Of a stretch of DNA of 64,000 nt, positions 20,441 to 64,000 are shown in pieces. This DNA comes from Apostichopus japonicus (lineage: Eukaryota > Echinodermata > Holothuroidea > Aspidochirotida > Stichopodidae): the NCBI RefSeq assembly GCF_037975245.1, contig NC_092569.1, positions 31,562,668-31,626,667 of the forward strand, written 5' to 3'. The notes below the pieces were generated by a model. The model saw nothing but the letters and a program-made list of their open reading frames with translations, ran no database searches and was not told the DNA's origin. Within the stretch, counting starts at the first letter, position 1; each line of letters opens with the position of its first letter. Made by a program: the position numbers and the translations under genes.

Positions 20441-21165
20441 TGAATTCTATGCATGTAGCTCGGTTTTCCAATAAATCACAACCACGCAAAGTGCGAATGC
20501 AGTGACGCTTTAGACACTATTCTATGGTAGATTTTATTAACTATAACCATATCGAAAACTTGTGAAGACCAATCCGAATTCTGCTAAAGCCATATTTTGC
20601 TTATATGTTCCTATAATTTGGTGGTATACTAAACTTGGCCGTTTAAGGAAGATTGTGAAAAAGAAAGGGGTATTTATATAGAACGCTTTCCCGGTGGCTA
20701 GAGAACGATTTACCAGTGATACACATTGATTACAAATTTCAATTAATCCTAACCGTAATCACTTTACTCATGCCAACTTAACTAGACTATGCAAGTTTAC
20801 AACAATCTTTATTTGAGTTGACAATTATTAGAACAAGTGTCTGTGTTACATAATCCTAGTGCAGTATACCGCGCGCTTATGAATTGCTCCACCGTACACC
20901 TGACAGTGTTTCCTTCCTTAAAGGTATTGAAGACACGCCCCGAACCGCCACCCTCTGAAAAAGTTAACTTTCCGTTGCTTGCAAGTGAAGTTTGTTTCTT
21001 GTCGCTACAAAATGCAGACAGTAATGAAACGTGATACCTTAATATCTTTAATCTGGACCTGAGGTCAGGGAGTTCCATAACATCTCCCTGCCGAGATGTC
21101 CATCGCTGCTATGTACACTCTGTTGTGGGTATTGACCGTAGCTGTATGTATTGACTGTACACTAG

Positions 21166-21727
21166 TGTCTAATTACCGACGGTAGCAAGCTGTGTGTGTA
21201 TTTTCTGGGATCGATGGTGGTGTATAACACTTTTGTTACACTTCATTCGAAACTAGGTCAGATTACCGGCATGACGTTTCTTTGTGCGCGAGTCTTCAAA
21301 CCCTTTAAAGTTAATTAAATTCAAATTTCACGAATCTACAGTAAACCTAACGTTCGAGACAGCAAAAGAAAAACTTGAATACTATATTTTATTGTTTTAT
21401 AAATACATTATTCAAATAACGAATATCTTAAACCATAATGAGCATGTGTCTAATTACCGACGGTAGCAAGCTGTGTGTGTATTTTCTGGGATCGATGGTG
21501 GTGTATAACACTTTTGTTACACTTCATTCGAAACTAGGTCAGATTACCGGCATGACGTTTCTTTGTGCGCGAGTCTTCAAACCCTTTAAAGTTAATTAAA
21601 TTCAAATTTCACGAATCTACAGTAAACCTAACGTTCGAGACAGCAAAAGAAAAACTTGAATACTATATTTTATTGTTTTATAAATACATTATTCAAATAA
21701 CGAATATCTTAAACCACAATGAGCACG
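21166..21727. repeat. Head-to-tail duplication of a 281-bp unit
   Basis: Two nearly identical copies (about 21166-21446 and 21447-21727) begin GTGTCTAATTACCGACGG and differ at only a few bases near their ends. A more diverged partial copy is at 38159-38290. Each copy contains an identical 54-codon open stretch, but there is no sign that it is expressed. Confidence 0.92.
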
Positions 21728-22356
21728 TGCAAAGATTTCGTGCTAATTTTATTGTGATGTAAGATTGAACTACAAACCATAGCTAAGCGATTACATCACG
21801 TTACATCACCCCACAAGTAGGGCCCTACGAGTTAAAACAATAGGCTATGCAACGAATAATAAGAAAGCCTACACAATGTATCTAATACAGAGAATTGTCA
21901 ACTGTCATTGTGACGTCAGAACACCTGCTGGTGATGTCGCACCATGAGGTGTAAGTTCTTTATCGATTTACTGCATATTAAATGATTTTTATTTTTATGC
22001 ATAACGTGAGATCGACGAATCTCAATATAAGACTCGCTATTACCACAGCAGTGCTGTGCATTCGATGGAATGTTTGAGGGTTTGGATCCTACAAGCGAAC
22101 TTGCAGTATCACCAACTATAGTTAACGTGATCGAACTGGGACATTCAAAGTCACATACAAGACACTGAAAACAAAAAAACTAATCTTACATAAATTCGTC
22201 AAAAAAGGAAATAAGTTGACGTCATTTAATTTGATCACTGTTTTGATCCATTTGGATGTCCAAGTTTTGACCGCCGAACAACGATCAACTGGTGATCTCT
22301 GCACGAATCGTATAACTTCTGTGATTTCAGTATTACTATAGAGGAGCACTGGCAAA

Positions 22357-24501
22357 ATGGCGGACGATCTGGTACAGGAAATCAGTGAAGACCTTCTCAA
22401 ATGTGCCATATGCATGGACAGATACGAGCAACCCAAAATTCTACCATGTTTCCACACATTTTGTGAATCATGTTTGGATCTGTACGCAAAGAAGAAAGGA
22501 GGCATATCTTTCCCTTGTCCGAGTTGCCGGGCAAATGTAAATCTTCCTGGGAGCGGTGTGGCAGGGTTGCCGACAAATTTTTATGTCGGTAGTTTAAACG
22601 AGAAGCTAGTTCGTCTTGAAGAATTACAGAACAACGTCAAAGAAGAACAGGAAGTGACGTGTGGCGAGTGTCATAATTCTGAACTAAGAATTGATCAAAT
22701 CTGCGAAAAATGTGAAGAGCTATTTTGTGACGACTGCGCTGAAATTCATTCCAAATGGTCATTCATCAACGGTCATAACGTTTTGACGATCAACGAATTC
22801 AAAAGGGAGATTAAAAAGAAAGTTTTACAGAAGCCTGGTCAAGACGCCGAGATCGAGATGTGTCCAACACACCCTAAGGATCAGGCGAGTTTGTTTTGTG
22901 ACACATGTAAGACACTTATATGTTTCAGATGCACAGAAGAAAAACACTCACGTCCAGACCATGATTACAAAAGCTTGCAGACACTAATCGCCCGAACCAA
23001 CCAACTGCTCACACACAGTCTGACGCAGAGCGACACGATGTTGCGAGAGTGTACGGACATCGCTGGAGTACATTTGACATCCTTGCAACGCATTCGTGAA
23101 AGCACTACGCACCACAAACAAAGTATAAGGAATGAAACGAAGAGGGCCAAAGAAGCAATCGAAGAGGAAGAGAAAAAGTTGCTACAAGAGGTCGCTAAAT
23201 TTGAGAGTAGAGTCTTTCATTTTTACAAAGTACGTATAGATGAAATTTCCGACTGGCGAGAGAGTGTCGAAATTTCTCAAGCGGTTATCAAGCAAGTTTT
23301 AGGAAAAAGCTGTGGAAATGCCGAGTTTCTCACTGATGGTCAATACTTGGGAGAAACTTTGTCGAACATGCGCAAACATCACGCGCGATTCCACGAACAT
23401 CATGAAGTCGACCAAATTGCGTTTGCACCAACTTCCAAGAGCGAGCAGGCATCCCAATTGGGCAAAATTTGGGTACCAAAATGTATAGGTATAAAACCCA
23501 CAGGCAATGGGTCACGTGATGCTATAGTGGTATGTGAAGATGCAGCTTCTTTCAATATTTATATCGGGAATGTCCTCAGCGAGAACGGTCTCCACTTGAA
23601 GAATATCTTTTGGTTTGTTTCTTTCCGGTGGCCTCAGGGTCACGGTGCAAAAGAAAGAAAAGAAGGCAAACTGTGCTTCGCTGTGAATCCTGGCAATTGC
23701 GTCTTTCTAGGCCAAGAGAAGGGTGTGGCCTGTTTTGACATGGAAACTGGTACGTCCCAAAGAGCCGGGAGAGACGGTGATATATGCTATAAAACATATT
23801 CCATAATCAGATGCATGGAATTTGACGAGTCCAGTAAGTTGCTTTTCATTGGTGTATCAACAACTCGTATTGTAGCAGTCGACCCTGACAAGAATTGGAT
23901 ACTGTCTTTTTTCATTGAGATCCCCAACGACCTATATTCTCCACTCAGTATGTGTCCGCATAAATACGGTACTCTCTTCGTCTGCGAGTCCCAGTCGATG
24001 GTCTACGAAGCCAACTTCAAGAGGCAGTGCGGGTTCCTTACGTCATGTCCTACCGCAATTGGAGGACACGACTTCAAACCAGTGCACATCTTGCGCACCC
24101 CTTGCAAATATACAGGCAATGACCAAACGTCCGACAGTGAGCTATACCAAGACGGAAGGAATCAAGGCAAATACGTCCTCAAACGGGTTACTACTCAATT
24201 GGAGTTTGCTTGGTTCGTTTTATGGGTCGCACCTGGGCAGGCAACGGCGGGTTCTGATGTTACAAATTCCACCACCAGATGGGCTATAGCAGAATATAAT
24301 ACAGATAACACAAATGTTGTTGCAATCCTTCAGCAACCTCTGGGCATGGGAATTCCTGCTGGTATATTGCCTTTTGAATCTAACGGTTTCATGGAGATAA
24401 CTCTATGCGACAATGGGATGGGGTTTAAGAGTTTCAGGAGAAGTACATCAAGGACAGGTACACAATCAGATTCAAGTCCAACTTTGTATTCTGAAGTCTA
24501 A
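22357..24501 (+). CDS. Intronless TRIM protein (RING, two B-boxes, coiled coil), 714 residues
   Basis: A single open frame with ATG in good context (AAAATGG). Residues 16-57 form a C3HC4 RING with C16, C19, C31, H33, C36, C39, C54 and C57, so an E3 ubiquitin ligase is expected. A first B-box spans about 99-145 (CGEC...CEKC...CDDCAEIH) and a second about 168-208 (CPTHPKDQASLFCDTC...CFRCTEEKH). A charged, mainly helical region (about 210-330) is the expected coiled coil for dimerisation. The C-terminal half (about 380-714) shows neither the PRY-SPRY signature nor clear NHL repeats. It may be a diverged propeller-like domain, as in TRIM56-type proteins, but I cannot name it. Intronless TRIM genes with unusual C-termini are commonly expanded in marine invertebrates. 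The substrate is unknown; an innate-immune role is a guess from the family. Confidence 0.93.
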   Translation: MADDLVQEISEDLLKCAICMDRYEQPKILPCFHTFCESCLDLYAKKKGGISFPCPSCRANVNLPGSGVAGLPTNFYVGSLNEKLVRLEELQNNVKEEQEVTCGECHNSELRIDQICEKCEELFCDDCAEIHSKWSFINGHNVLTINEFKREIKKKVLQKPGQDAEIEMCPTHPKDQASLFCDTCKTLICFRCTEEKHSRPDHDYKSLQTLIARTNQLLTHSLTQSDTMLRECTDIAGVHLTSLQRIRESTTHHKQSIRNETKRAKEAIEEEEKKLLQEVAKFESRVFHFYKVRIDEISDWRESVEISQAVIKQVLGKSCGNAEFLTDGQYLGETLSNMRKHHARFHEHHEVDQIAFAPTSKSEQASQLGKIWVPKCIGIKPTGNGSRDAIVVCEDAASFNIYIGNVLSENGLHLKNIFWFVSFRWPQGHGAKERKEGKLCFAVNPGNCVFLGQEKGVACFDMETGTSQRAGRDGDICYKTYSIIRCMEFDESSKLLFIGVSTTRIVAVDPDKNWILSFFIEIPNDLYSPLSMCPHKYGTLFVCESQSMVYEANFKRQCGFLTSCPTAIGGHDFKPVHILRTPCKYTGNDQTSDSELYQDGRNQGKYVLKRVTTQLEFAWFVLWVAPGQATAGSDVTNSTTRWAIAEYNTDNTNVVAILQQPLGMGIPAGILPFESNGFMEITLCDNGMGFKSFRRSTSRTGTQSDSSPTLYSEV

Positions 24502-38290: not shown

Positions 38291-38597
38291 CTAAGCGTGG
38301 GCAGGCTAGTAACTTAACTCGCAACTCTAACTCACAACTACTTCGGACTTGAGTAGTGACTTCAACTTTCACACATTTTTTGATCACTTTCCTTTCTCTT
38401 AAAATTCATGCACCAATGTCTATACTATCATTACACTACATCTGATCTCTATAAGTCTGTAGCATGATCTTATCTTTTCTTGCTCTTACAATACACTGCA
38501 CAATGTCTTTGTTGGCAACAAGTCTTGCATTTTGCTTTATTCTTATTAATAGTGTTAAACTGAGTACTCCCAATAATCAACCTTAATCTCTCACAAT

Positions 38598-41115
38598 AGT
38601 ACATTAAAAATTGTGACCCACATCATGTACACAATAGTACATTAATAGAACTTTGTGACCCACATCATGTACACAATAGTACATTAATAATTGTGACCCA
38701 CATCATGTACACAATAGTACATTAATAGTTGTGACCCACATCATGTACACAATAGTACATTAATAATTGTGACCCACATCATGTACACAATAGTACATTA
38801 ATAGTTGTGACCCACATCATGTACACAATAGTACATTAATAATTGTGACCCACATCATGTACACAATAGTACATTAATAGTTGTGACCTACATCATGTAC
38901 ACAATAGTACATTAATAATTGTGACCCACATCATGTACACAATAGTACATTAATAATTGTGACCCACATCATGTACACAATAGTACTGTACATTGCAGTT
39001 GTGACCCACATCATGTACACATTAGTACTAATAGTGACCTACTGTACATCATGTACATAATAGTGCATTTGTGACCCACATCATGTACACAAAGTGCATT
39101 AATAGTTGTGATTCACATCAGGTACTCAATTGTGCATTAATAGTTGTGACCCACATCATGTACACAGTAAGTACATTAATAGTTGTGTTGTGACCCACAT
39201 CATGTATTCAGTAGTATGTCATTAATAGTTGTGACCCACATTATGTACACAATAGTAAATTATAGTTGTGACCCACATCATGTACACATTAGTACATTAT
39301 AGTTGTGACGTACATCATGTACACAATAGTACATTAATATTTGTGACCCACATCATGTACACAGTAAGTACAGTACATTAAAGTTGTGACCCACATCCTG
39401 TACACAATAGTGCATTAATAATTGTGACCCACATCATGTACACAGTAAGTTCATTAAAGTTGTGACCCACATCCTGTACACAATAGTAAATTATAGTTGT
39501 GACCCACATCATGTACACATTAGTACATTATAGTTGTGACCTACATCATGTACACAATAGTGCATTAATAATTTTTACCCACATTATGTACACAATAGTA
39601 AATTATAGTTGTGACCCACATCATGTACACATTACTACATTATAGTTGTGACGTACATCATGTACACAATAGTGCATTAATGATTGTGACCCACATCATG
39701 TACACAGTAGTATATATGTCATTAATAGTTGTGACCCACATCATGTACACAGAAGTACATTAATAGTGGTGACCCACATCATGTACACAATAGTGCATTA
39801 ATAATTGTGACCCACATCATGTACACAGTAAGTACATTAAAGTTGTGACCCACATCCTGTACACAATAGTGCATTAATAATTGTGACCCACATCATGTAC
39901 ACAGTAAGTTCATTAAAGTTGTGACCCACATCCTGTACACAATAGTAAATTATAGTTGTGACCCACATCATGTACACATTAGTACATTATAGTTGTGACC
40001 TACATCATGTACACAATAGTGCATTAATAATTTTTGCCCCACATTATGTACACAATTAGTAAATTATAGTTGTGACCCACATCATGTACACATTACTACA
40101 TTATAGTTGTGACGTACATCATGTACGCAATAGTGCATTAATAATTGTGACCCACATCATGTACACAGTAAGTACATTAAAGTTGTGACCCACATCATGT
40201 ACACAATAGTAAATTATAATTGTGACCCACATCATGTACACATAAGTACATTATAGTTGTGACCTACATCATGTACACAATAGTGCATTAATAATTGTGA
40301 CCCACATCATGTACACAGTAGTATATGTCATTAATAATTGTGACCCACATCATGTACACAATAGTGCATTAATAACTGTGACCCACATCATGTACTGTAC
40401 ACAATACTGTAGTACATTAATAGTTGTGACCCACATTATGTACACAATAGTGCATTAATAACTGTGACCCACATCATGTACTGTACACAGAAGTACATTA
40501 ATAGTGGTGACCCACATATACACAATAGCACATTAATAATTGTGACCCACATCATGTACACAGTAAGTACATTAAAGTTGTGACCCACATCCTGTACACA
40601 ATAGTGTATTAATAACTGTGACCCACATCATGTACACAGTAGTACATTAAAGTTGTGACACATCATGTACACAATAGTACATTAATAGTTGTGACCTACA
40701 TCATGTACACAGTAGAACATTAACAGTTGTGACCCACATCATGTACACATTAGTACATTATAATTGTGACCAACATCATGTACACAATAGTGCATTAATA
40801 ATTGTGACCCACATCATGTACACAGTAGTACATTAAAGTTGTGACCCACATCATGTACACAATAGTACATTAATAGTTGTAACCTACATCATGTACACAG
40901 TAGTACATTAAAAGTTGTGACCCACATCATGTACACATTAGTACATTATAATTGTGACCAACATCATGTACACAATAGTGCATTAATAATTGTGACCCAC
41001 ATCATGTACACAGTAGCACATTAATAGTTGTGACCCACATCCTGTACACAATAGTGCATAAATAATTGTGACCCACATCCTGTACACAGTAGTACATTAA
41101 TAGTTGTGACCCACC
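38598..41115. repeat. 38-bp satellite array, about 2.5 kb, with higher-order structure
   Basis: More than 60 head-to-tail units of GTGACCCACATCATGTACAC plus AATAGTACATTAATAGTT are present. Early units alternate between ...AATAATT and ...AATAGTT, forming a dimer. Later units are more mixed. A run of about 12 units recurs about 460 bp apart: the rare variant ATTAATAATTTTT...CCCACATTATG is at 39560 and again at 40022, with the same neighbours. Confidence 0.95.
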
Positions 41116-41778
41116 TCATGTGCATCAAAATACATGCAGTACCAACATTGTTGGTCACAAAAGTGACCAAATGGCCAGTCATCCAACCTCACTTACATAC
41201 AGTAGGTGGCTGTGATGTGTGGCAATTTGTGTGGTGACGCAGATGCATGTACAATGACTAGCAATGTCCAGAGGTTTTTTGGTGACTCATACCAAGGAGT
41301 TGTTCCATATTAATAACTCCCTGCTCATACAAGTACAAACTTGTACATAAAACTGGTGAACTTCACACTTAGTATGTATATATGGGTCCACTACATTATT
41401 AATTAGCATAAGAACTACTGTAGCATAGCTGTGAAAAATTTGCAATTTTAAAAGTTCTCTTGTATCCCGGAATGTGGCAACAGTCATGTGAGTTGATTAC
41501 CTCATTGTTGCTGCAAACTATGGAAAGAGGAATAACCTTTCCAATAGAGCATACCAAGATTGAAGAGTTTTGGATTATCTTTGAATTTCTGACTATTCCT
41601 TTGCAGGTGGTGACTGCACAGATGGAGGATACTGTATGTAATTGATGGAATTGGCATACTTGATTTGAAAGGGGTTGGCATCTACTCATCTAGAGACTTT
41701 TCAATCACCTTATGTCTTCCCGTGATGATCAAACCTTGTGGGACTGTACTCGTAAGGAGATGGTTACTGAATTAGACC

Positions 41779-44700
41779 ATGGATCCGTAAGTGTTATTTG
41801 CAGGGGAATTAAAACAAACTCATCCAGGCGCGTAGGGGGCGAAGGGGGAGACCTCCCCCCCTTGAGCATATTTTTTTGTGTGTTTTTATGATATCGCTAT
41901 TAATTTCAAAGTTAGATGCAACAGTTTATAGGAAGTGCCATTTCCAGCGATCTGAGAGGCATTTTAAGCTAAAATTTCCTTGTACTCTTAAATAGTTTTC
42001 AATGCCGTATCTAGGCCTCTGATTGTTTACCTACAGGTTTGCCCCTTCCGTGGCAAATTCCTCGCTACGCGCCATCCATCACTAGCCCTCATTGAAGTGT
42101 TGTATTGACAAGAATATTTCATTTCCTCGTAATCTGTAATTCATATGAGTTATTTGCTCTGCTGTTCAAAGTGCTGCTTTGTAATTTTGGAGTATCTCCA
42201 AAATAAATCTTTGGTTTTCTTTAATAGTTTTATTAATTCTTTGCCATCTGAGGTGAAAGGAATCTATGCAAAGGTGTAGTTTGTCTCCTGTAGTTTCTGT
42301 TACTTGTCGTTCAGCCTCTGAAGAAGATCCTGCTAGAGTAGGATCGAAACGTCAGGCCCACTCATACTTTTACACATACTCTTACACAGGCTATTGAGTG
42401 GGATAAGCAGTTTGTTAACAGTGTTTGTTAAAATTTTGATTTTTGATTTAGAAATTGGTAATTATTAGATCTACAACAGTTAATTAAATTGCCATATCTC
42501 TGATTTAATCTACAGTCCCACCGAGTCGGACCTTCCTGCCAACGAATCTGGTTCCTCTACACGACCCATTCGGCACTATGAATCTGAACAAATGAAAGAG
42601 TACCGCAAGAAGATATATGACATTTGGACATTTCATTCACTTGAGGAGGTACAATACAGTTGTAATGCACATATGATTCTTTTATTCAGTTATTCTTTGG
42701 TTGGTTTTAAGTAACTGCCACTGTTTGCTTCAGTTTTATAAAAGTTTATATCTCATCAAATTAGAGAAGTATATATGCAGTTTTGAGTTAGTGTACATAG
42801 AATTTGCACATTTTGCAAAGCATTTTGCTATGCAATACCTGATAAATTATTCCCTGTATTTGAACTTCAGCATACTAAGACCAAGCTATTCACATGCTAC
42901 GACAAAAGAAAAGTGTATCTATAGATTTAACTAATTCAGTGTGTGAAGGTGCTGGGGTGAACAAATGATTGTATATTATTACTCAAATAATGTTGGTTTT
43001 TCTTGCAAGTAAGGTTACCAGCAATTGAGGATTCCTTTTCATTCTCTTATTTACACAGGATTCCTGTAACTTTATAAAATGGAAGAAATTCTTTCAAGGG
43101 TTGCCATCAACCAACTTTAAACAATGGGATAAATTCCTGAATCGATATCCTGATCTAAAGGTCAGAACACATGTATGTATTACTCTATGTGTGTGGGTGT
43201 ATGTATGTATGTATTTTAGATCCTCCTGCAAGCAGGAACTCGTGAAGAAGCCATCATTGGCTTATCAAATCTGCAAGCTGACTGAAGTCAGTCTCTTAGA
43301 TTCATATTTAACGTCCATGATTATGAATTGTCAATTGTCAACAAGTCTGTAACTGGAGGACATACGTTAATCTTGGAGTGCCTCAAATTGGGGACCTTAT
43401 GATTGAAAGGCACCTGAGCTAACACTCCTTAGTGTGCATGTATGTGTGTCAAATCTTAGGCAAAGATTGTATAATGCTACTTGGTCTGGTTCCCATAATT
43501 CTTGTCTTCCATCTGGAAGGCGTTTCTTTTGAAGCAGAGACAATGTATGATTTGAGAAATTTATGAGATATGCTTGGACATTACGGAGTACAGTAACAGC
43601 ATATAAATCTGTTGCCAGTGCCTATGTGTACTGCAGTGTTCACTGAAGCATTACTAGAGAAGCCAGACAGCCTGGGTATAATAAAATTAGTAAAGAGATT
43701 TATTGTGCTATAAAATAAAAGCTGTTAAAAATCAATGGTAGTGCCATACCCATTCATCTTTAAAGGTTCTGGATGATGTTGTTAAACGTACTGGTAAAAT
43801 TATTAGGAAAATTCTGCTGTCAGTGGCCTTGGTCTACAAGAATCGTGTACGATACAAGCCGCTGTCCATGTGGAATGATCAGCCACCCATTGCATAATCA
43901 TCTAACCAGCCATATCATTGCTCGTAGCAGTAGATTGAGGTCTCTGACGTCACACACAAATAGACATTGTTCTTCATTTATAGGCACTGCCATTAGTGTT
44001 CACAACAAGGACTTCACGAGGTAGGGGTGGCCGTTCCACTTAGTTGCGCTGTTGGAGCTAGTTAGTGCATATTTTGTATAGACTGCATATAATTGTTGAA
44101 TATTATCAATGTTCTTTGTATTTGTATCATTCATCGTATGGCTCTCTGCAGATATGTAAATTCCTTCTGGGATTCAATAAATTTTACTTACTAACTTACT
44201 TGCCACAAGTGCTTTATTCCTAATCTTCAATGAACCAATGTTTGGCATGAGGAATGAACAAACTCAGTACAAATTTCAGTTTTCGTCAGGAATATTAAAG
44301 TAGGACAACAAAAAGCTCTTCCAGAATCACTTTACAGTACAGTATGTGCTTTATTTATCAATAGAGTAGGGAATGAAGAATTATAAATGCATACTGGATT
44401 GCACATATTAATTGGACACTGAATTTCATTTTGTGAAAATAAGTTTGAATTATTTGTTAACTTATTACTATTTCACGATAAGTTCTATGTTCTGTTCCTT
44501 GTTACATAGAAACTATTGGAAAGCTTGAAAGATGAAGACGATGGCTCTTTCGAAGGTGGGATAAAAATACTTATGTCTGTTTTTATGAAAGAGCTTGAGA
44601 ATTATTAAATGACTCCAAAGGACTATTCTTTCTTCAGAGTAACATAAGCTCAGTTAAGTGTAAAACATGATAAATCAACAATGGCAATTTGGATTGAAGT

Positions 44701-47700
44701 CATAGTTGGTAAATAGATGTGCCATAGTGAGTAGATGAACCCTATTGATTTTGGTGCTCATCTCATGAATAATAATGAGGTCACTGGGTCAAACATGAAA
44801 ATCTTCTAATACTAATAACTCCGCAACCGAAAGTCAGAATTTATTCATACTTGGTAGTAATGTGTTGGTAGATAGTGGTTACATGGTAACATATGTTCAA
44901 GTTGATATTATGCATATTTATTAGGGGGTGGGCTTAATTTTACTTTCACTTATATAGCTTGTAAACACGGTAACTGAACAACGACAAGATGGATTGAAGT
45001 CATACTTGGTACATATATGCGCCATAGTGAGTAGAATAGCCTATTGATTTTGGTGCTCATCTCAAGAATATTAATGAGGTCAGAGGGACAAATGTAAACA
45101 TTTTCAGAATTGAATCTTTGTGTGAAGGTGTTAGTAGATAGCGGGTATGATAATGTATGTTCAATGTGATATTATGCACATTTATTAGTGGGCAGGGCTT
45201 AAGTTGATTTTTGGTAAAAATAGCTTGTAAACATGGTAAGTTAACATATTTAGTAGGTAGGTCCACAGTCAGTGAAAGAACCTTGCTGATCAATTTAATC
45301 AACAATGACAAAAGCTTGGGATTATAATCTCAATTGGCAAGGAATCACAATAAGCCCACTGGCTTTCTGGTTTTCTTTGGCCTTACAATACCCACCAAGA
45401 ACAATTGTATGTCCTAATGGTGAAGGCCTGATGTAAAGTGGTTAGAGGGTCATCCCACAACCTTAAGGTTCCAGGTTCATAACTCTACCAGGAGACTGAT
45501 CCTCTTGACCCTTTTCGTTAAAAATTGCTGCTGTTCTGCTGAGTCTTTTGTGAATTTTTGGGATTGTGAATCGGGAAATGGGCTTTGGGAGAATTTTATT
45601 CCCCTTGGCTGCACTCTAGTGATGATGAATGAGGTGATTTGAACCCTTCAGGATTTGAGGAAGTGGGACGTTGTTGGGGTACACTCCCATCAGTTGAAAA
45701 GGAACATTAAAAATGGTGTTCTGAGAGAAGAAAAGGATGCAACAATAACATGCACTTGCTCTGCATGTAAGTTGAGTTCAGCATAGGTGAAAATCTGAAA
45801 ACTTTTTAAACACTCTAACTCAAAGAAAGTAAAGGTTTGATTTACTTCTTACCTGGTATGTGGATCCACCTTATTGAGTAAAAGAAACAGATCATTTTCT
45901 ATTCAGGTGAAAAGGTCATTTGAAGTCAATAAGGGTCAAAGTCTGCAAACATTGTATACATGGTAACTTCAAAAGTAGAACTTGGATTTACATACATGTT
46001 ATGTGACTCAACCATATTGAGTGCAAGGTTGTTTTCCCTGGAGGTCAGACGTCAGTATGTGCCAAAAGAGGTCATGGTTTGAAAACTTTTTAAACAAAAT
46101 AACTCCAAATTTAAAGTTTGGATGAACTTCAAACTTGGTGTGTGGATCCACCTTATCAAGTATAAGACCTGTGCACAGTATACATTAGATTTGCTTGTAC
46201 AAAAAGTGTAATCTGGCAAGGAATCTCAAAGTCTCTTCTGGTCATGACAGGGTAAGGGTTTTACATCTTTGGCTTCTGCCTGATACAATAAGGTTTTCTT
46301 TCATTAACCGTAAGTATGATGCTCCAAAGGAGATCTGTATGTTTCATACCGAGGATTCTAAATTGCTCTTAAGGTGTACATCAATGAATGTTTTCAAAAA
46401 AATTGGTATCTCTTATTTTCTACTCGTAACAGATGAATATTCTAACGTTCAAAAGCAACTTCAACATGAGAGGGGAAAAGCCCAAACAGAGGCTAACAAA
46501 CTATTGACAGAGGTAAGCGTACTCCCAATATATGCATTAGCATTGAAAAAGCTGTAGTACTGTAGTAATTCTGTTTGCCACATAATGCCTTTCAACAATT
46601 AACTTGTGCTTCAGTGTAGAGTTCCACAGCAGACATTCAAGGGATGACTGTGTGCAGACAGGGCTAATTAGTGTACTTAATGTTGAATAAACTTTATACG
46701 AGTTACTATGTATATTGCAAGTGTAAAATATAAGACCCATTTTGGTTGTTGTAAATTTCAAAGTTCACCTTAGATGACCAGTTACCAGTGAGAGTGTGAA
46801 AACCCATCCCAATATCGCCCAGGTTCTTTACCTGTAGATATGTTTGCATTTAGCTAGATGAACCTCCCTTCTCCAGAAAGTGCATAATCATGGAAGCCAT
46901 CTTATGACAGATGTCTCGTAAAAGTTTCAATTCCTTGTACAACCTTGCTTTGAGGAAAATGTTACAATTGTGGTGTTCTCCTAACTTTGGGGCCTCATAC
47001 TGTAAATGCTTATGACTCTAAAGAACGTTTTAAGTAACTAGAGGAAAATGCACAATAAAAGAATAAGCAAGCACAATTGATTTGCTGTGATGATGTTATT
47101 CAATTTAGTGTTGCCAGATTGAACTAAATATATCTTCCAGATCAAACATACTATCAGCATTGTGTCTATTATACAGAAGGGCTACAAAAATGTTGACAAC
47201 TGAGTGTATCCCCTTAAGTCAGAGAAACTGCTAGTATAGTGAAGCTGATGGAGGGACTCATTACTACTCTCGCCATATTTCTTTTGAAGCTAATGAGAGA
47301 AAATGTTTTGTCATCATCTAGATCATTGCAGAAGCCTGTACTTACTCCAATAAGATGTTAAGAGTCAAAATTGGATTAGTACATCAATTCACCAACACAA
47401 ATATGAATGTTTCTCTTCTGTTTCTTTTCTCTACATTGGTAGAGCCTTGGAATGTGAAACTCTTTCATGGATAATAGCTGTAATCAAGACGTGCTACATA
47501 AGATAACATCATGCTATGACACACTTTGAATCTAACTAACTTGTAGTGAGAACATATTTATCACTTGTGCATCAGATAATTATTTTGTAATCTGTAATTA
47601 AATGATGAAATATTGTCATATTACATCTAGTTGAATGCAGTAGTCAAAGAAGGAGGAAAAACGTTTTGTGGACTAGAAACATCTCCATTGAACTTAGAGA

Positions 47701-49967
47701 CAAGGAAGTTCTTCAAAGAAGGATCAAAATATCAGTACCAGCCGAATGTACGAGAATATCTCTTGAATGGTTTCCCAGATGTATTGAAGAAGGATTATTG
47801 CTGTCCAGAACCTGTCACAACCAAAAAAAAGGATAAAAACAGGAACAGCAAGCATAATTTAACAGAAGATCAAGATAATGAGAGTAAAGGTGTCATTACA
47901 GTTGTCAGGATGTTCCAAGAATTATCCCTTGAGGGACAAACACCAAGCCCTATGTTTATCCTCACAAATTATCAATTTCCAAATATAATGAAATATGTCA
48001 AAGATGTTAAAGTTTCCAGTCAGATTGGTGAATTTGATATCATTGTTTTGAGCAAGTGGTATTCATGTTTTTTTATTGGAGAAATCAAGGCTTGTAAGAG
48101 AAGTGCTACCAATTTGACGAAGTGCATATTTGAAGCTAATGACCAGCTGTTCAAATACTACGCCATTATCCAAGAAACGTTTAGGGATAGGCCTGATATT
48201 TTAGAACTTCCAGTGTATGACTTTATAGTCATACCATTTGTGGATAGGTGTACTCTAAAAAAAACAATGTCAAAGGAATTTGATGATAGGAAGGTACTAA
48301 CAGAGGATGACTTACAGGACCAGGAAGCTTTTACAAACTGGTTGGGTCGTACCTTCCCACAAGTTAGTGGAGTTGGTCAGCATTCTTCTATGGATGATGA
48401 TCAGTATTACACTATTGTAGAAAGATTTGCTGGCATTGGCTCTGAAGTGGAAAAAACTCCACCACAAACGAAAACTAAAGAGGAAGGAAATTTTCTGTTT
48501 CGCAATCAGAAGCTAACTTGCGTACAGGAAGAACTTGTTAAAAGTACTCACCATCTTTTAGCGATAGCAGGTGATTATGGGACCGGCAAAAGTTTGACGT
48601 TAGTCAGAAGAGCTATTCGTTTCATAGAATGTGCTCAAGGCAGTGATATCAAGGTGGTCATGGTGTCCTTTGCTGATGTTGCAGTTAGTGGAAAGTATGT
48701 TGACAAATGCTCACCAGAACACATGGTCCATCATTTGCAGCACCTATTGCAGAAGAAAAATCATGAATATATTCAAGTGAAAACCTTTAGCTCTTTTGTT
48801 GGTAAATGCAATTCAGAAGCCAGTAAAGAAGATTCCCTAGAAAGCCAAGAAGCTTGTCTAAAGGTTTTGACTGATGCTGTGGAAACAGAGCTAAAAGCAG
48901 GCAACTTGTCATTACATTTACTGTTTGATGAAGTTCCTCATAACTTAGTGTCCCAGCAGTACTTCAAAGATTTCTTTAAATGGCTTAATGAAAAAAAAGA
49001 AAGAGTGTCTGTTTCGATGACCATTGCTACTCACTCTTACAGAGTTTTCAACAAAGATAATTCATTGGTCAGAGAAGTTCTGCCTAAAGATTGTATGTAC
49101 GGCTATCTAGGTAAAGTGCAAAGAACTCCCCGACGGGTATTCAATTTGCAGAAAGAAATCAGTAGTTATTGTGGTGATCATCATGAGAGTGAGCTGGATA
49201 ATTTATGGGGTGGATCTATGCCTCTCCTTTATAGAGTTCCAGACTGCTCATGTCTTACAGAAAATCAAGCCCCTTTCAAGCCTGAGCCCCTTTCAACTCC
49301 CTGTGTAGAAGGGAGATTAAAATGCACTTTGAAACAGCTATTTCAAGATCTCCAAATTATCGATGAAATTGGAAATGTTAAAAAAAAAGATTGGCCGGGC
49401 AAGGTTGTTATTATTATTTCTGCTGTTTCTTGTCCAAATCTGGAATCACAGATATGTGGCTTACTGGAACAATGTTGTCAGCAGCTCAAAATTAGAATAA
49501 AAAATGAATTGTCTGTTGACACTTCTTACAGTAATGGTGATAACACATCACAAGATGATGGCCAGAGAAGTGCGTCAGTAGGTGATGAAATTCTTCTCAC
49601 CAAAGAAACGTACTACATTGGTTGTGAAAGACATGTTGTCATCTGCATAGATCTAAACGCCATGAAACATTGGTTCAACGGGAGTAGGATTGCATATAGC
49701 GCTCTTGCTGTGTCTCGTTCTCTCTCAGACTATGTACATCTAACTTTTCAAGAGGAGGAAGCCTCGAAAATGTTTAAAACGAACCTTAAAGCGAATGAAG
49801 GTTTGATGTCCTCTGAAGAGATAAATGAGGCATTTCGTAAGAGTCAGGAAGGCAAAGGTTGTCTACAAACAGTACTTGATAAACAAGTCATCGAGGAGAA
49901 GAGAGTTAACAAACCTGCAGAAATATGTAACAGTAATCAATTGACATTTCATGCTGCATGCAATTAA
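41779..49967 (+). CDS. Predicted PD-(D/E)XK (NERD-like) nuclease fused to superfamily 1 helicase, 6 exons, 901 residues
   Basis: Exons 41779-41786, 42516-42648, 43059-43160, 44510-44555, 46433-46512 and 47631-49967 join with AG/GT borders and matching phases. The start ACCATGG is an excellent context. Residues 1-123 are charged and helical, with no domain I recognise. The nuclease core is GEFDIIVL (D259) ... FIGEIKACK (E274, K276), the D-x14-E-x-K pattern of PD-(D/E)XK enzymes, with the preceding GE as in NERD domains. The helicase has Walker A GDYGTGKS (437-444), Walker B LLFDEVP (D556, E557), a motif V-like YYIGCERHVVICID, and motif VI AYSALAVSRSL (R819). Nearly all the enzymatic part is in the single last exon. 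Bacterial NERD-helicase proteins act on DNA or RNA and some serve in phage defence; a nucleic-acid sensing or defence role here is inference only. Schlafen helicases are a distant alternative, but their N-terminal nuclease fold is different. Confidence 0.85.
41826..42074. mobile_element. Small inverted-repeat element in the first intron of the nuclease-helicase gene
   Basis: It begins GGCGCGTAG and ends CTACGCGCC. The interior carries a C-rich tract and part of the dispersed core (GTGCCATTTCCAGCGATCTG, then TTTTAAGCTAAAATTTCC). It is related to the hAT-type element at 25389-25744. The target duplication is unclear. Confidence 0.55.
42305..42352 (+). repeat. Conserved stem-loop motif resembling a hammerhead ribozyme core
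   Basis: The order is GCCT, CTGAAGA, A, a GATCCT...AGGATC hairpin, GAAACGTC, AGGC. The parts match the hammerhead consensus CUGANGA - stem II - GAAA, with the flanking GCCT/AGGC pairing as stem I. A related copy lies on the other strand at 52606-52652. Such motifs are known in Penelope-like retroelements. There is one extra A before stem II and hardly any stem III, so activity is doubtful. Confidence 0.4.
43740..44205 (+). mobile_element. Non-LTR retrotransposon 3' end in an intron
   Basis: The translated fragment SRLRSLTSHTNRHCSSFIGT, followed by AISVHN, is the usual C-terminal end of a LINE ORF2 protein. About 170 bp of 3' UTR follow and then a simple tail of ACTTACTAACTTACTT, typical of LINE 3' ends. 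It is 5'-truncated and lies between exons 3 and 4 of the nuclease-helicase gene. Confidence 0.75.
44690..45225. repeat. Tandem duplication of a ~300-bp intronic repeat
   Basis: Two diverged copies, about 44690-44960 and 44991-45225, share CCTATTGATTTTGGTGCTCA, AATGAGGTCA and GATATTATGCA-TTTATTAG segments. Looser relatives with TGTGGATCCACCTTAT occur at 45855 and 46140, so this is a dispersed family. Confidence 0.75.
45425..45690 (+). repeat. tRNA-derived SINE in an intron
   Basis: A box A-like AGTGGTTAGAGG is followed by a box B-like GGTTCATAACTC at tRNA-like spacing, then a non-tRNA body. Similar in design to the units at 17150 and 53357, but not identical. Confidence 0.5.
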
Positions 49968-50848
49968 GTGCCACAACCTTGGTGATCAGGAAGTCAATAA
50001 TGGTCAAAGTTTAAACAGACTTGTTTGCCTGTTCGATCACTAAGACCAATGGCGTTTTGCTGACTGCAGCCTTGATGAAAGGAAGCTACGACCCTGTAAA
50101 GTGCTACGTTAATATTGTTACTGACATCCCAGCCCTCTTCATCCCATTCTTCTCATCGTCTTCAAAATTGACTGCTGTTGTACATCTGAACTATTTGTTT
50201 TATGCAGATGTGTCTTATACTGTAGTCTTTTCACTTCATGAACTTAGCCAGTTATTATTCCACACCAGTTCTTTATTCATTCTACAAGAACAATTGTTGA
50301 ACATAAATAACATCTATGAAAGTACCTCAGGTAATTATATTTTAGTAAAACGGCCTACCTCTATTTTAGACTGGCAGTCTTGAAGTGGCTTTGAAATAGT
50401 TCTAACACATTATGTCATCGTCCACTTGTGTCTGCTGTTGAGATGTTTTGGTTAATCTTTCCATGCTTCAATTCATATTTATTTTCTCACCAGTGTTCGA
50501 AAAGTTATCTCAGGTGTTTGGAATTTTAAAATTACAGTAAAGTACATATGCTGATCGCTAGGAAAATGAAAGTCAAAGGTCGAATATCAAGCTAGTGACA
50601 AAAGAAAATCATACCAGAAGATACCATAAGGAATTTGAAACAAGAAACATTGAATCCAAAGAGGGGAACAAAGTGAAAAAAATGTTAAACACAATAGCAA
50701 TAGTTGTTTAGTAATAATTTACCATACATGTATTATTGTGTAATGTGTTATTGGAAAAATCATCTTCCTTAGATTTATTGTAAATTTTTTAGAATGCATA
50801 TAGAACAGTTAACTCTACATGCCTTGGCTGATTTTGGTATAAAACCTT

Positions 50849-55490: not shown

Positions 55491-56389
55491 CTTGGGCTTG
55501 AATATGACCAACTAGGTGTTCACTTTGCCTGAGTAAACCAAGTATTTTCCCAATATTTTTTTTGTCCATCCAAAACCTTTTTAAAGATTGTCACCAGTCA
55601 CTAGTCACACATCATGTTCGACCTCATCGCATCTCCTGTGGATCATTGCTTTTGTAGGTGATTCTATGTCGCGGCCCACAATACCTGTCAGCCCCACTTT
55701 CAAGCTTTTAGGCCCATTATTCGTTCAGAATTTGAAAATTCCTACTTCTCGTGAAATAAATTCACTTCAAAAGCATACCCATAATGTTGCACAAAGTTTC
55801 ATCTAGGCTATGGACATCCAATACAGAAAAACCTCCTTATACCCCTAACAGACTGGTCAAAATTGCACGAGAAATGGGAAGAATGTTGAGGAATGTTGGT
55901 CAGGGAATTTCGAAAATTCAGCCCCAGTTAATTTATTGGTGCATGGGCGCAGATCAGTCTTGGATAATGGTGGGGACGCGTGTCTGCTTCTGATAGTCTA
56001 TACTAAAACAACTGTGGAGGCCGCTTAACCTGTCATTTTATATCATGTCGTATTGCTGGCCTGGTGTAGGACTTACTGCTGAGAAGCCCCCAGCAACTGC
56101 AGTCACAGTCAGTGAATCTGATGTCACGTTCAGAGACTAATGTATGCCCATTAGCCTATATTTTTATTTGTAAGCCTAGAGTACATCTGCGTGTCGATTA
56201 GGAGGTAATCCAGTCTGTCTTTAAACAAGACTGGGTATATTAATATTATGGTGTGTTTTATAATTCCTCCATAACAGTATATATATGGAGTTAGTCTAGG
56301 CCTATGTGCAACTTAATCATCGGAAATTAGGTCTAGGACTAAGTCTATATAACACTAAGTTAATGCATAGCCTAAGTTGCTGCACTAAC

Positions 56390-56573
56390 CTGAAGTATGC
56401 ATTGCATTCATCATCGTATTATCTTCCAAATCGAAGGGGTCGTAATCATAATATTGGAATTCAGGGTTTGACGGTTTGTTGTAATCGTATAGCAACATGA
56501 ATTCGGCGTCGTCTAATAAATCTGTTAAATATCCAACAGTAATTGCTTCACGAACTCTATGAAGGTTTGCCAT
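56390..56573 (-). CDS. Lone first exon of a HARBI1-like (PIF/Harbinger transposase-derived) gene
   Basis: ATG at 56573 (context ACAATGG) opens 61 codons, ending at a good donor (CAG/GTTAGTG) after one base of the next codon. The peptide contains VREAITVGYLTDLLDDAEFM, then LLYDYNKPSNPEFQYYDYDP and FDLED. This resembles the N-terminal part of many invertebrate Harbinger-derived nucleases (LLYD-N-SKNP-FPYW-Y--FDLD pattern). Those proteins carry a DDE nuclease domain of about 200-250 residues further on. No such open frame is found downstream on the minus strand within this window, so the rest is far away, lost, or the exon is a relic. The assignment is from memory of the family pattern. Confidence 0.55.
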
Positions 56574-56789
56574 TGTTTCAAATCTTGCAGTACGGTCGTC
56601 TGCTGCAAAGTATTAGTGTATGTCGTCTGCTGTAAACTATTGTGCATACACCATAGCAACGGTTGCTATCTGTCACTGTGATATGATTGGTCACATGATT
56701 CTTCTTGGTTACATGATTCTTATTGGTCACATGACTGCCATCCCCCCCCCCCCCTTCGTACAGATCTAAAGCACAAAATCAACAGGACG

Positions 56790-62336: not shown

Positions 62337-64000
62337 TTAATATCTGGGACCGCCTCTAGCCTTCTTGATCATTTTCAATCTCTTCTTAGCATCTTCTAGT
62401 TCCTTTTCTTTCTTCAAGATCAATTCCTGGGCAGCAACCTCTTTAGCGAAGATTCCCGTCAGTTTATAATCCTGCTTCTGCGCGACTTCTGCGTCTTCGG
62501 CTTGCGCTTCGTTTATCTGCGCAGCGGCGACGAGACTATTGGTAGCTTTTTGAACCGCGCTACCAGCCGTCTAAGGGGAAAAAGGAGAAAAACCAGTTGG
62601 TACACTATAGTAAGGAAACAAAACGTTTATTGTTGGAAATTTCTGTTGTCCTTATAAAACACTTTTTGTACTTGAAAATCCGAAATTTATATCGGAAAAA
62701 GAGAAACAAGTCGTTGACCGTGAAAGACACATGATTTTGAACCGTGATGATGTATGAACGATTCTATAACTTCCAAGAATAAAACGTTTTAGGAAACTTA
62801 AGGTATATAAAAATCAAGCCTAACTGCAGAATGTGTGTGTTAGTATATGTTTCTTCTCCAACATTGACTCCATCACACAGTAAAGTGCATTCCTAGTCTC
62901 ACAAAAACACCATTGCTGCAAGACACACTCCCTGTCACAAAGTATCTTACTGATAGCCACAGCCTACATCAGCGCCGACTTGTTGGTTTCTCTTTCAGAA
63001 TTTCATTAGAAGGCGATTGCACTTGGACCCGACCCGTTTATTTCCAGCTTAATACAGTCACAGCCAACATAATATGCAACAATGACGAGTTTGCCCAATA
63101 GTAAAGAGCGCCATTGATATATATCGGTTACATTACATCATCACATCGTGCGATAGTGTACTGGTTATTTTATGAATACATATAAGACATTGTTAAACCA
63201 TGCACGTACCAATAGGTAATGGTTCTCTGTTTGTTATGTTTCTCTATATATATATGTCCCTATACAAAGTATGTGTGTGTGTTTGTGACCATTTTGGTAG
63301 ACTATATTTACCTCCAGTCGTCGCATTCCGTCTCCAAATATTTCCTTCTTAACCTTACAGGAAGCTAACAACTCCGTAGTCGAAATGGAAACCTGTCTTG
63401 CTGACGTCACTAGTTGGGCCTGTGACGTCTCTCCCTGGACTAAGTTATGCGCTGACTCGCACATGCCCTGTGTTGATTGGGCAACTTTACGAGCTGACGA
63501 AATCAGCCCGCGAGTCCAAACGCCATCTTCGCTGTTTTCTGATACTGCAACCTGGGTATCGATAATAAAAGGTTTTTGTTCAGTAGTGATTAAATCAGAC
63601 TTTGAAATGTAAAAAGCATACTTTAATTAATGACACAAAAAAGATGTAACATCACAGACAGATCAAGTTGGCTTCGAATGAATTAATGCTATGCACTTTG
63701 GTTTTCTTTTCATTTGCAGCATACAAGATTGCAGGATAAGATAAGCTATGGAGAGTCATTTAATACCCCCACATGAGAATTTTAAAGAGCAATGACTCAC
63801 ACCCCACCCCCTCCCTCCAACCCTCTCCTTTCTACACGAAGAGTAAAAAATGATGAAAGCAAAAAAAAAAAACTAATAAAAGGATAAGCTTTATTGAAAG
63901 CCACTTGGATAAAGTGCTCATACTTTTCCTTGGTATTCTTGCTGCGCATTGGAGGCTATCTTAACCAACACACTGGTGGCATTAGCGATAGCTTTCGTAG
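62337..64000 (-). CDS. TLN: Talin, C-terminal three exons (I/LWEQ actin-binding region); 5' part beyond the right edge
   Basis: Exons in transcript order: 64000(partial)-63924, 63551-63312 and 62570-62337 (stop TAA), with correct splice sites and phase 0 joins; 182 residues in the window. The segments TKAIANATSVLVKIASNAQQ, then DGVWTRGLISSARKVAQSTQ, then ASCKVKKEIFGDGMRRLE, and KKEKELEDAKKRLKMI match, in order, the last ~180 residues of vertebrate talin (SIAAATSALVKAASAAQ; GQWSQGLISAARMVAA; VACKVKADQDSEAMKRLQ; RKERELEEARKKLAQIR). This is rod domain R13, the I/LWEQ actin-binding module, and the C-terminal dimerisation helix. Talin is the cytoplasmic linker between integrins and actin. The short tail GGPRY differs from the vertebrate end. 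HIP1-family I/LWEQ proteins are a poorer match. Confidence 0.95.

Follow-up and report, generated by a model that had tools for sequence, protein, structure and literature searches.

The gene analyzed here occupies positions 41779-49967 on the forward strand of the window, the 64,000-nucleotide stretch of Apostichopus japonicus DNA that was studied as a whole. Six exons were predicted, with AG before and GT after every inner border, and the spliced reading frame encodes 901 residues followed by a stop codon, with no frame break across the joined exons. This agrees with an initial annotation of the same DNA, which had described six exons whose phases join; the motifs that it had named (D259, E274, K276, GDYGTGKS, LLFDEVP, and AYSALAVSRS) are all present in the translation. 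The predicted exons are as follows.

41779..41786, forward strand: exon 1, 8 coding bases, ATGGATCC, with the start context gaccATGG and a GTAAGT donor
42516..42648, forward strand: exon 2, from its splice borders; codon score best in the frame used
43059..43160, forward strand: exon 3, from its splice borders; codon score best in the frame used
44510..44555, forward strand: exon 4, 46 bases, from its splice borders; codon score best in the frame used
46433..46512, forward strand: exon 5, 80 bases, from its splice borders; codon score best in the frame used
47631..49967, forward strand: exon 6, 778 codons plus stop, with predicted NERD nuclease, linker, and SF1 helicase

The frame of exon 6, termed P0001, supplies the residue numbers used below; D136, E151, and K153 of P0001 correspond to D259, E274, and K276 of the whole protein. 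It has 778 open codons, whereas in 100 first-order Markov windows the longest frame averaged 143 and never exceeded 204. Exon 6 reads open straight from the acceptor AG and has no Met before residue 93. Because this Met lies inside the nuclease domain, the limits of which come from a MAFFT alignment for this argument, the whole domain can only be encoded with the help of some exons further upstream. In exons 2 to 5, the best codon score fell in the frame used in four of four cases, a result favored by stops in the other frames and obtained with scoring trained on exon 6 and the TRIM-like frame listed below. Residues 1-346 of the spliced protein gave no Pfam match at E≤10.

Overall, the gene looks intact. 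The predicted model is weakest at exons 1, 4, and 5: they are very short, lie amid long introns, and were predicted from the sequence alone. It is conceivable that some of the short exons are chance matches and that the true protein start lies elsewhere, but we regard such an error as unlikely, given that the phases join and that the codon scores of exons 2 to 5 favor the frame used. Exon 6 by itself carries the main claim.

Surroundings of the gene

The window reads as animal DNA. Outside the gene and within its first intron, we observed the following.

21165-21729: tandem duplication of 281 bp that precedes the TRIM-like gene, with 99% matches
22342-24501, forward strand: TRIM-like one-exon gene, open over 719 codons, with one RING match and two to B-boxes
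38592-41121: minisatellite just upstream of the nuclease-helicase gene, with 66 copies of a 38-bp unit
42318-42353, forward strand: in intron 1, CTGAAGA, a hairpin, GAAAC, and GTC, an arrangement that we take to resemble a hammerhead ribozyme core
56388-56612, reverse strand: acidic open frame of 75 codons, coding-looking by eye, with no Pfam row at E≤10; it may derive from a transposase
62340-63626, reverse strand: talin C-terminal (I/LWEQ) exons, by Pfam

The hammerhead-like pattern, which was written after the sequence had been seen, matched once against 0.01 matches expected and was found in 1 of 100 shuffles; the Rfam hammerhead model gave no row at E≤5 in 41700-50100.

Repeats around the gene, with the minisatellite upstream and the hammerhead-like core in intron 1, would suit a nuclease-helicase that belongs to a mobile element and not to the host. 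We consider this origin very improbable. A tblastn search with the protein showed no second copy in the window, the gene is divided into six exons, and no transposase or reverse transcriptase was found among the four frames outside the gene that were scanned with Pfam.

Single-sequence searches hardly place P0001

Searches that used P0001 as a single sequence could barely assign it to a family. Pfam returned three rows, all below threshold, led by UvrD-helicase (E = 8.3e-4, residues 299-400) and followed by AAA_22 and UCH; there was no direct row for NERD (PF08378) at E≤10 with either P0001 or its nuclease segment. Among the five rows returned by PADLOC, the top one was GajB (6.1e-6, residues 294-391), and a candidate defense protein, PDC-M47B, matched residues 104-224 at 0.0031. 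A search for PDC-M47B in 12 and then 247 genomes yielded no match, but its controls were equally silent. Neither RTasNERD-Hel (PDLC03813) nor NERD+UvrD (PDLC01087) of PADLOC matched P0001 at E≤10, and the same was true of the Nhi and AbiO models; across Pfam, NCBIfam, PADLOC, and PHROGs, P0001 matched no NERD-helicase model. A sequence search of the PDB gave one row at chance level (E 1.6). No relative was found by tblastn in phages and plasmids at E≤1 or E≤10, by pattern and tblastn searches in viral contigs and genome contigs, or by single-sequence search in 249 genomes of the phylum of genome G007, and a viral-contig search with one NERD-helicase as the query returned nothing. Titles and abstracts in the literature searched, outside which most subscription journals lie, contained no animal NERD-helicase.

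The GajB row was followed with a five-row GajB profile, which scored P0001 at E 1.6, amid shuffles. GajB was dropped as the closest family because this profile does not separate P0001 from shuffled sequences.

Homology to bacterial NERD-SF1 helicases

NERD domains (PF08378) were found in 118 of the 149 genomes searched from the phylum of a Lentibacillus (G001). The long frames among these NERD loci join NERD to an SF1 helicase, and the two that were scanned have PF08378 together with UvrD-type helicase models. The set was enlarged by searching 247 and 249 more genomes and viral contigs. From 91 ORFs of at least 480 amino acids in loci L086 to L195, 45 were kept; the other 46 were dropped for having no match at E≤1e-10 or for not covering both profile ends.

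The resulting 45-row NERD-helicase profile recognized P0001 at E = 5.4e-12, and none of 99 decoys, consisting of reversed P0001 and 98 shuffles, was recognized at E 1. With hhalign, the same profile gave a probability of 97.7% and E = 1.4e-12 in a single colinear alignment of P0001 residues 128-394 with profile positions 52-306, and the reversed query and three shuffled queries gave E values of 0.18 to 0.46. The aligned span runs from just ahead of the catalytic Asp, through the linker, to the segment past Walker A. These results bear out the reading in the initial annotation of a PD-(D/E)XK, NERD-like nuclease followed by an SF1 helicase, linker included. The predicted features of exon 6 are listed below.

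47883..48365, forward strand: NERD-type nuclease domain, P0001 85-245, start from MAFFT; hhalign E of 2e-6 to 4e-5 against the 45-row profile
48036..48089, forward strand: catalytic core D136 ... E151-x-K153, the same in all 9 rows of alignment A5 (described below) and in all 46 of the larger alignment
48366..48512, forward strand: linker; by hhalign, it aligns with bacterial NERD-helicases too
48513..49745, forward strand: SF1 (UvrD-like) helicase domain, from profile searches; second half by itself not clearly recognized
48570..48593, forward strand: Walker A, GDYGTGKS, kept in the alignment
48918..48938, forward strand: motif II, LLFDEVP, with D and E invariant across the rows
49029..49043, forward strand: place of motif III, THSYR, with the family Asp and Gln replaced by Thr and Tyr
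49611..49652, forward strand: motif V, YYIGCERHVVICID, with IG in place of the family KG
49692..49721, forward strand: motif VI, AYSALAVSRS, with its Arg on the family Arg in A5 and shifted in the 46-row alignment

Recognition of P0001 varied with the composition of the profile. When the 45 sequences were split by group, the two strongest scores were obtained with groups of 21 rows (6.2e-7) and 15 rows (1.3e-4), and six small groups scored weaker; the strength of the full profile thus depends on pooling. A nine-row NERD-helicase profile failed on P0001, with E 0.32, amid shuffles, and E 0.2 for the nuclease segment; in a MAFFT alignment with the nine-row set, most motifs were nevertheless placed in order. 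At an earlier stage, a set of 70 UvrD sequences had outscored a 13-row NERD-helicase set on P0001 (2e-5 versus 3.5e-4).

P0001 is 12.8-18.1% identical to members of the NERD-helicase family over 464 columns of the 46-row alignment, in which all 46 rows agree at D136, E151, K153, G317, G319, K320, D433, E434, and G664. In a FastTree tree that carries no support values, P0001 has a long branch next to L161, L183, and L146. Homology of P0001 to NERD-SF1 helicases along much of its length is well supported by these comparisons. The domain order of bacterial NERD-SF1 helicases, with a homologous linker, was recovered in the one hhalign alignment of residues 128-394, and because the linker is common to both, the fusion probably descended as a whole and did not arise by two separate joinings.

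The nuclease domain

The nuclease segment alone matched the 45-row profile at E 1.8e-5 or 4.1e-5, compared with 0.0014 for the top scorer among 120 unrelated, length-matched segments; before these decoys were drawn, 123 helicase-like ORFs had been taken out of 362. The HMM-HMM comparison with PD-(D/E)XK families that the initial annotation had proposed as a check came out in favor of NERD. With the nuclease part of the 45 NERD-helicases the segment reached 2.2e-6, and with 28 NERD domains 0.0012, versus 0.051 against Mrr_cat (27 rows) and 0.44 against PDDEXK_1 (28 rows), where a reversed control scored better (0.029). Sequences with cut ends or stops had been skipped in these family controls (2 of 30 PDDEXK_1, 3 of 30 Mrr_cat, and 2 of 30 NERD loci). 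On these values, RecB-type and Mrr-type identities for the nuclease were dropped, and the predicted domain prefers NERD over the profiles of these two other PD-(D/E)XK families. For comparison, the nucleases of seven bacterial or viral-contig NERD-helicases scored 1.6e-6 to 0.021 against the 28 NERD domains, and that of L161 matched Mrr_cat (0.004) better than NERD (0.0081).

The D, E, and K of P0001 are presumably the catalytic residues, as judged from the PD-(D/E)XK fold. Q172, the Q that follows E-x-K, is the residue found in 96% of rows. The predicted active site is kept, and we infer nuclease activity from the retention of these residues.

The helicase domain

The helicase segment alone (residues 295-778) matched the NERD-helicase profile at 4.3e-8. 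Its second half (359 residues) reached only E 0.015 by itself, and 2 of 120 shorter decoys (161 residues) scored better, at 0.0014 and 0.01. Under the motif names that we take to apply to P0001, the invariant columns of the nine-row alignment A5 show that Walker A, the DE of motif II, the Arg of motif IV, the Gly of motif V, and the Arg of motif VI are kept. Lost are the Asp and Gln of motif III, replaced by T467 and Y470, and the Lys of motif V, replaced by I663. We expect the predicted motor to bind ATP and are less confident that it would also travel along nucleic acid.

Structure models

An AlphaFold2 model of the exon 6 sequence on its own had a pLDDT of 35.6 and was discarded. A second model was based on A5, an alignment of P0001 with eight viral-contig NERD-helicases that are 14-17% identical. 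It had a pLDDT of 53.3 and a pTM of 0.41, with 111 of 694 residues at 70 or above. In its nuclease part, helices and strands are ordered as expected for a restriction-enzyme core; since A5 contains NERD-helicases, this order is not independent proof of the assignment. Foldseek ranked human SLFN11 first (8e-10 and 9e-10), followed by SLFN14 (2.8e-8) and then UvrD, and in a viral library giant-virus UvrD-like helicases led; TM-scores were near 0.3 in both cases. When the A5 profile was compared with solved chains, SLFN11 scored 4e-13 and human F-box DNA helicase 1 scored 2.8e-11. The Foldseek result fits an SF1 helicase and nothing beyond that.

Schlafen 11 and 14 consist of a nuclease followed by an SF1-type helicase, and their nuclease family differs from NERD. 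That Schlafens supplied the top three solved Foldseek matches, together with the SLFN11 score against A5, raises the question of whether the animal protein might be a Schlafen-like RNA-targeting factor composed of a nuclease, a linker, and an SF1-type domain that serves as a clamp instead of a motor. The losses in motifs III and V would suit a weak motor of this kind. We nonetheless find such a factor doubtful. P0001 has no Schlafen row in Pfam at E≤10 (HMMER filters drop most rows above 0.1), whereas UvrD-helicase reached 8.3e-4; its nuclease is NERD-type; and the model behind the structural matches has a pLDDT of 53 and TM-scores near 0.3.

Relatives and known defense systems

Seven NERD-helicases, chosen from the 45 or from those found later in viral contigs, were scanned with PADLOC together with three chosen neighbors. 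All seven had a NERD-helicase model as the best row, at 4.4e-43 or better: RTasNERD-Hel in five and NERD+UvrD in two. Bacterial NERD-helicases also matched the Nhi and AbiO models of PADLOC. The initial annotation had left the family unrecognized. This stands insofar as no model in the four libraries places P0001 itself; it does not stand for the kind of protein, which is modeled in bacteria as RTasNERD-Hel and NERD+UvrD.

The upstream neighbors of the viral-contig NERD-helicases L132, L133, and L134 are DrmB-like in three of three cases tested. DrmB is a component of DISARM. These DrmB-like genes adjoin the NERD-helicases of the relatives only; none was seen in the animal window. At L133, the frame downstream reads, by eye, like a DNA methyltransferase.

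The RTasNERD-Hel and NERD+UvrD proteins have the same domain order and linker as P0001 and share with it the catalytic D, the ExK and the Q that follows, Walker A, the DE of motif II, and the Arg of motif IV. Unlike these bacterial proteins, P0001 is encoded by a spliced animal gene that adds about 200 residues at the N terminus, carries a 14-residue insert at residues 349-362, and has lost the residues of motifs III and V noted above. Nhi combines nuclease and helicase in a single chain, as P0001 does, but P0001 lacks a match to the Nhi and AbiO models. Gabija offers a further parallel: GajB has a UvrD-like ATPase domain, the PADLOC match of P0001 to GajB covers residues 294-391 only, and the nuclease that works with GajB is a separate protein, GajA (PMC10822852). 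Passages of PMC10952713 state that GajB binds DNA ends and give NERD for Mokosh type I and Nhi-like systems. In PMC11084316, a part of the text describes Nhi as an enzyme, with nuclease and helicase in one chain, that detects and degrades phage replication intermediates, and a passage of PMC12839542 presents the NERD domain of BREX PglW as a possible backup nuclease.

Proposed role

We put at about 0.5 the probability that the gene belongs, as a diverged member, to the prokaryotic lineage of NERD-SF1 helicases (RTasNERD-Hel, NERD+UvrD), with the N-terminal region as an addition and intracellular defense as its most likely use. The published roles of Nhi, NERD, and GajB suggest how such an enzyme might work, with the motor finding an end or single strand and feeding the nuclease. 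The SF1 motor would bind foreign or damaged nucleic acid at a free end or where it is single-stranded, DNA being a likelier substrate than RNA. It would then spend ATP on loading or movement and hand the strand to the NERD nuclease, which would cut it as presented. The N-terminal region, partly coiled-coil-like by eye, might recruit partners or restrain the enzyme.

The use in bacterial defense does not transfer to the animal protein by homology alone. By analogy with its relatives, the most likely use would be intracellular defense against viruses or mobile elements. A bolder reading, which we hold to be less likely than not, takes the protein for an animal immune factor, so far unnamed, that unites nuclease and helicase in one chain, descends from or shares ancestry with the bacterial Nhi-like or reverse-transcriptase-associated NERD-helicases, and has gained a regulatory region at its N terminus along with changes to its motor. 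It would then be a further anti-phage module that serves innate immunity in animals.

The same chemistry could instead be directed at intermediates that arise when the animal replicates or repairs its own DNA, as is the case for Dna2 and FBH1. Human F-box DNA helicase 1 matches the A5 profile, though this profile consists mostly of bacterial rows, and nothing within the window ties the gene to immunity. Set against a genome-maintenance enzyme is the finding that all seven relatives tested score as PADLOC defense proteins; the strong divergence of P0001 and its loss of motif III would also be unusual in a conserved repair enzyme, a point that is suggestive only. We regard a maintenance role as unlikely and favor the diverged NERD-SF1 helicase with a defense use.

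Several animal immune genes have relatives among bacterial anti-phage genes. If the protein should prove to be a maintenance enzyme, it would still be an animal case of a domain order otherwise met, in the collections searched, in prokaryotes and viral contigs. Should it turn out to be expressed and active on invading nucleic acid, a direct-acting nuclease-helicase would join the animal immune genes that have anti-phage relatives, as a defined protein whose active-site residues are named and open to experiment.
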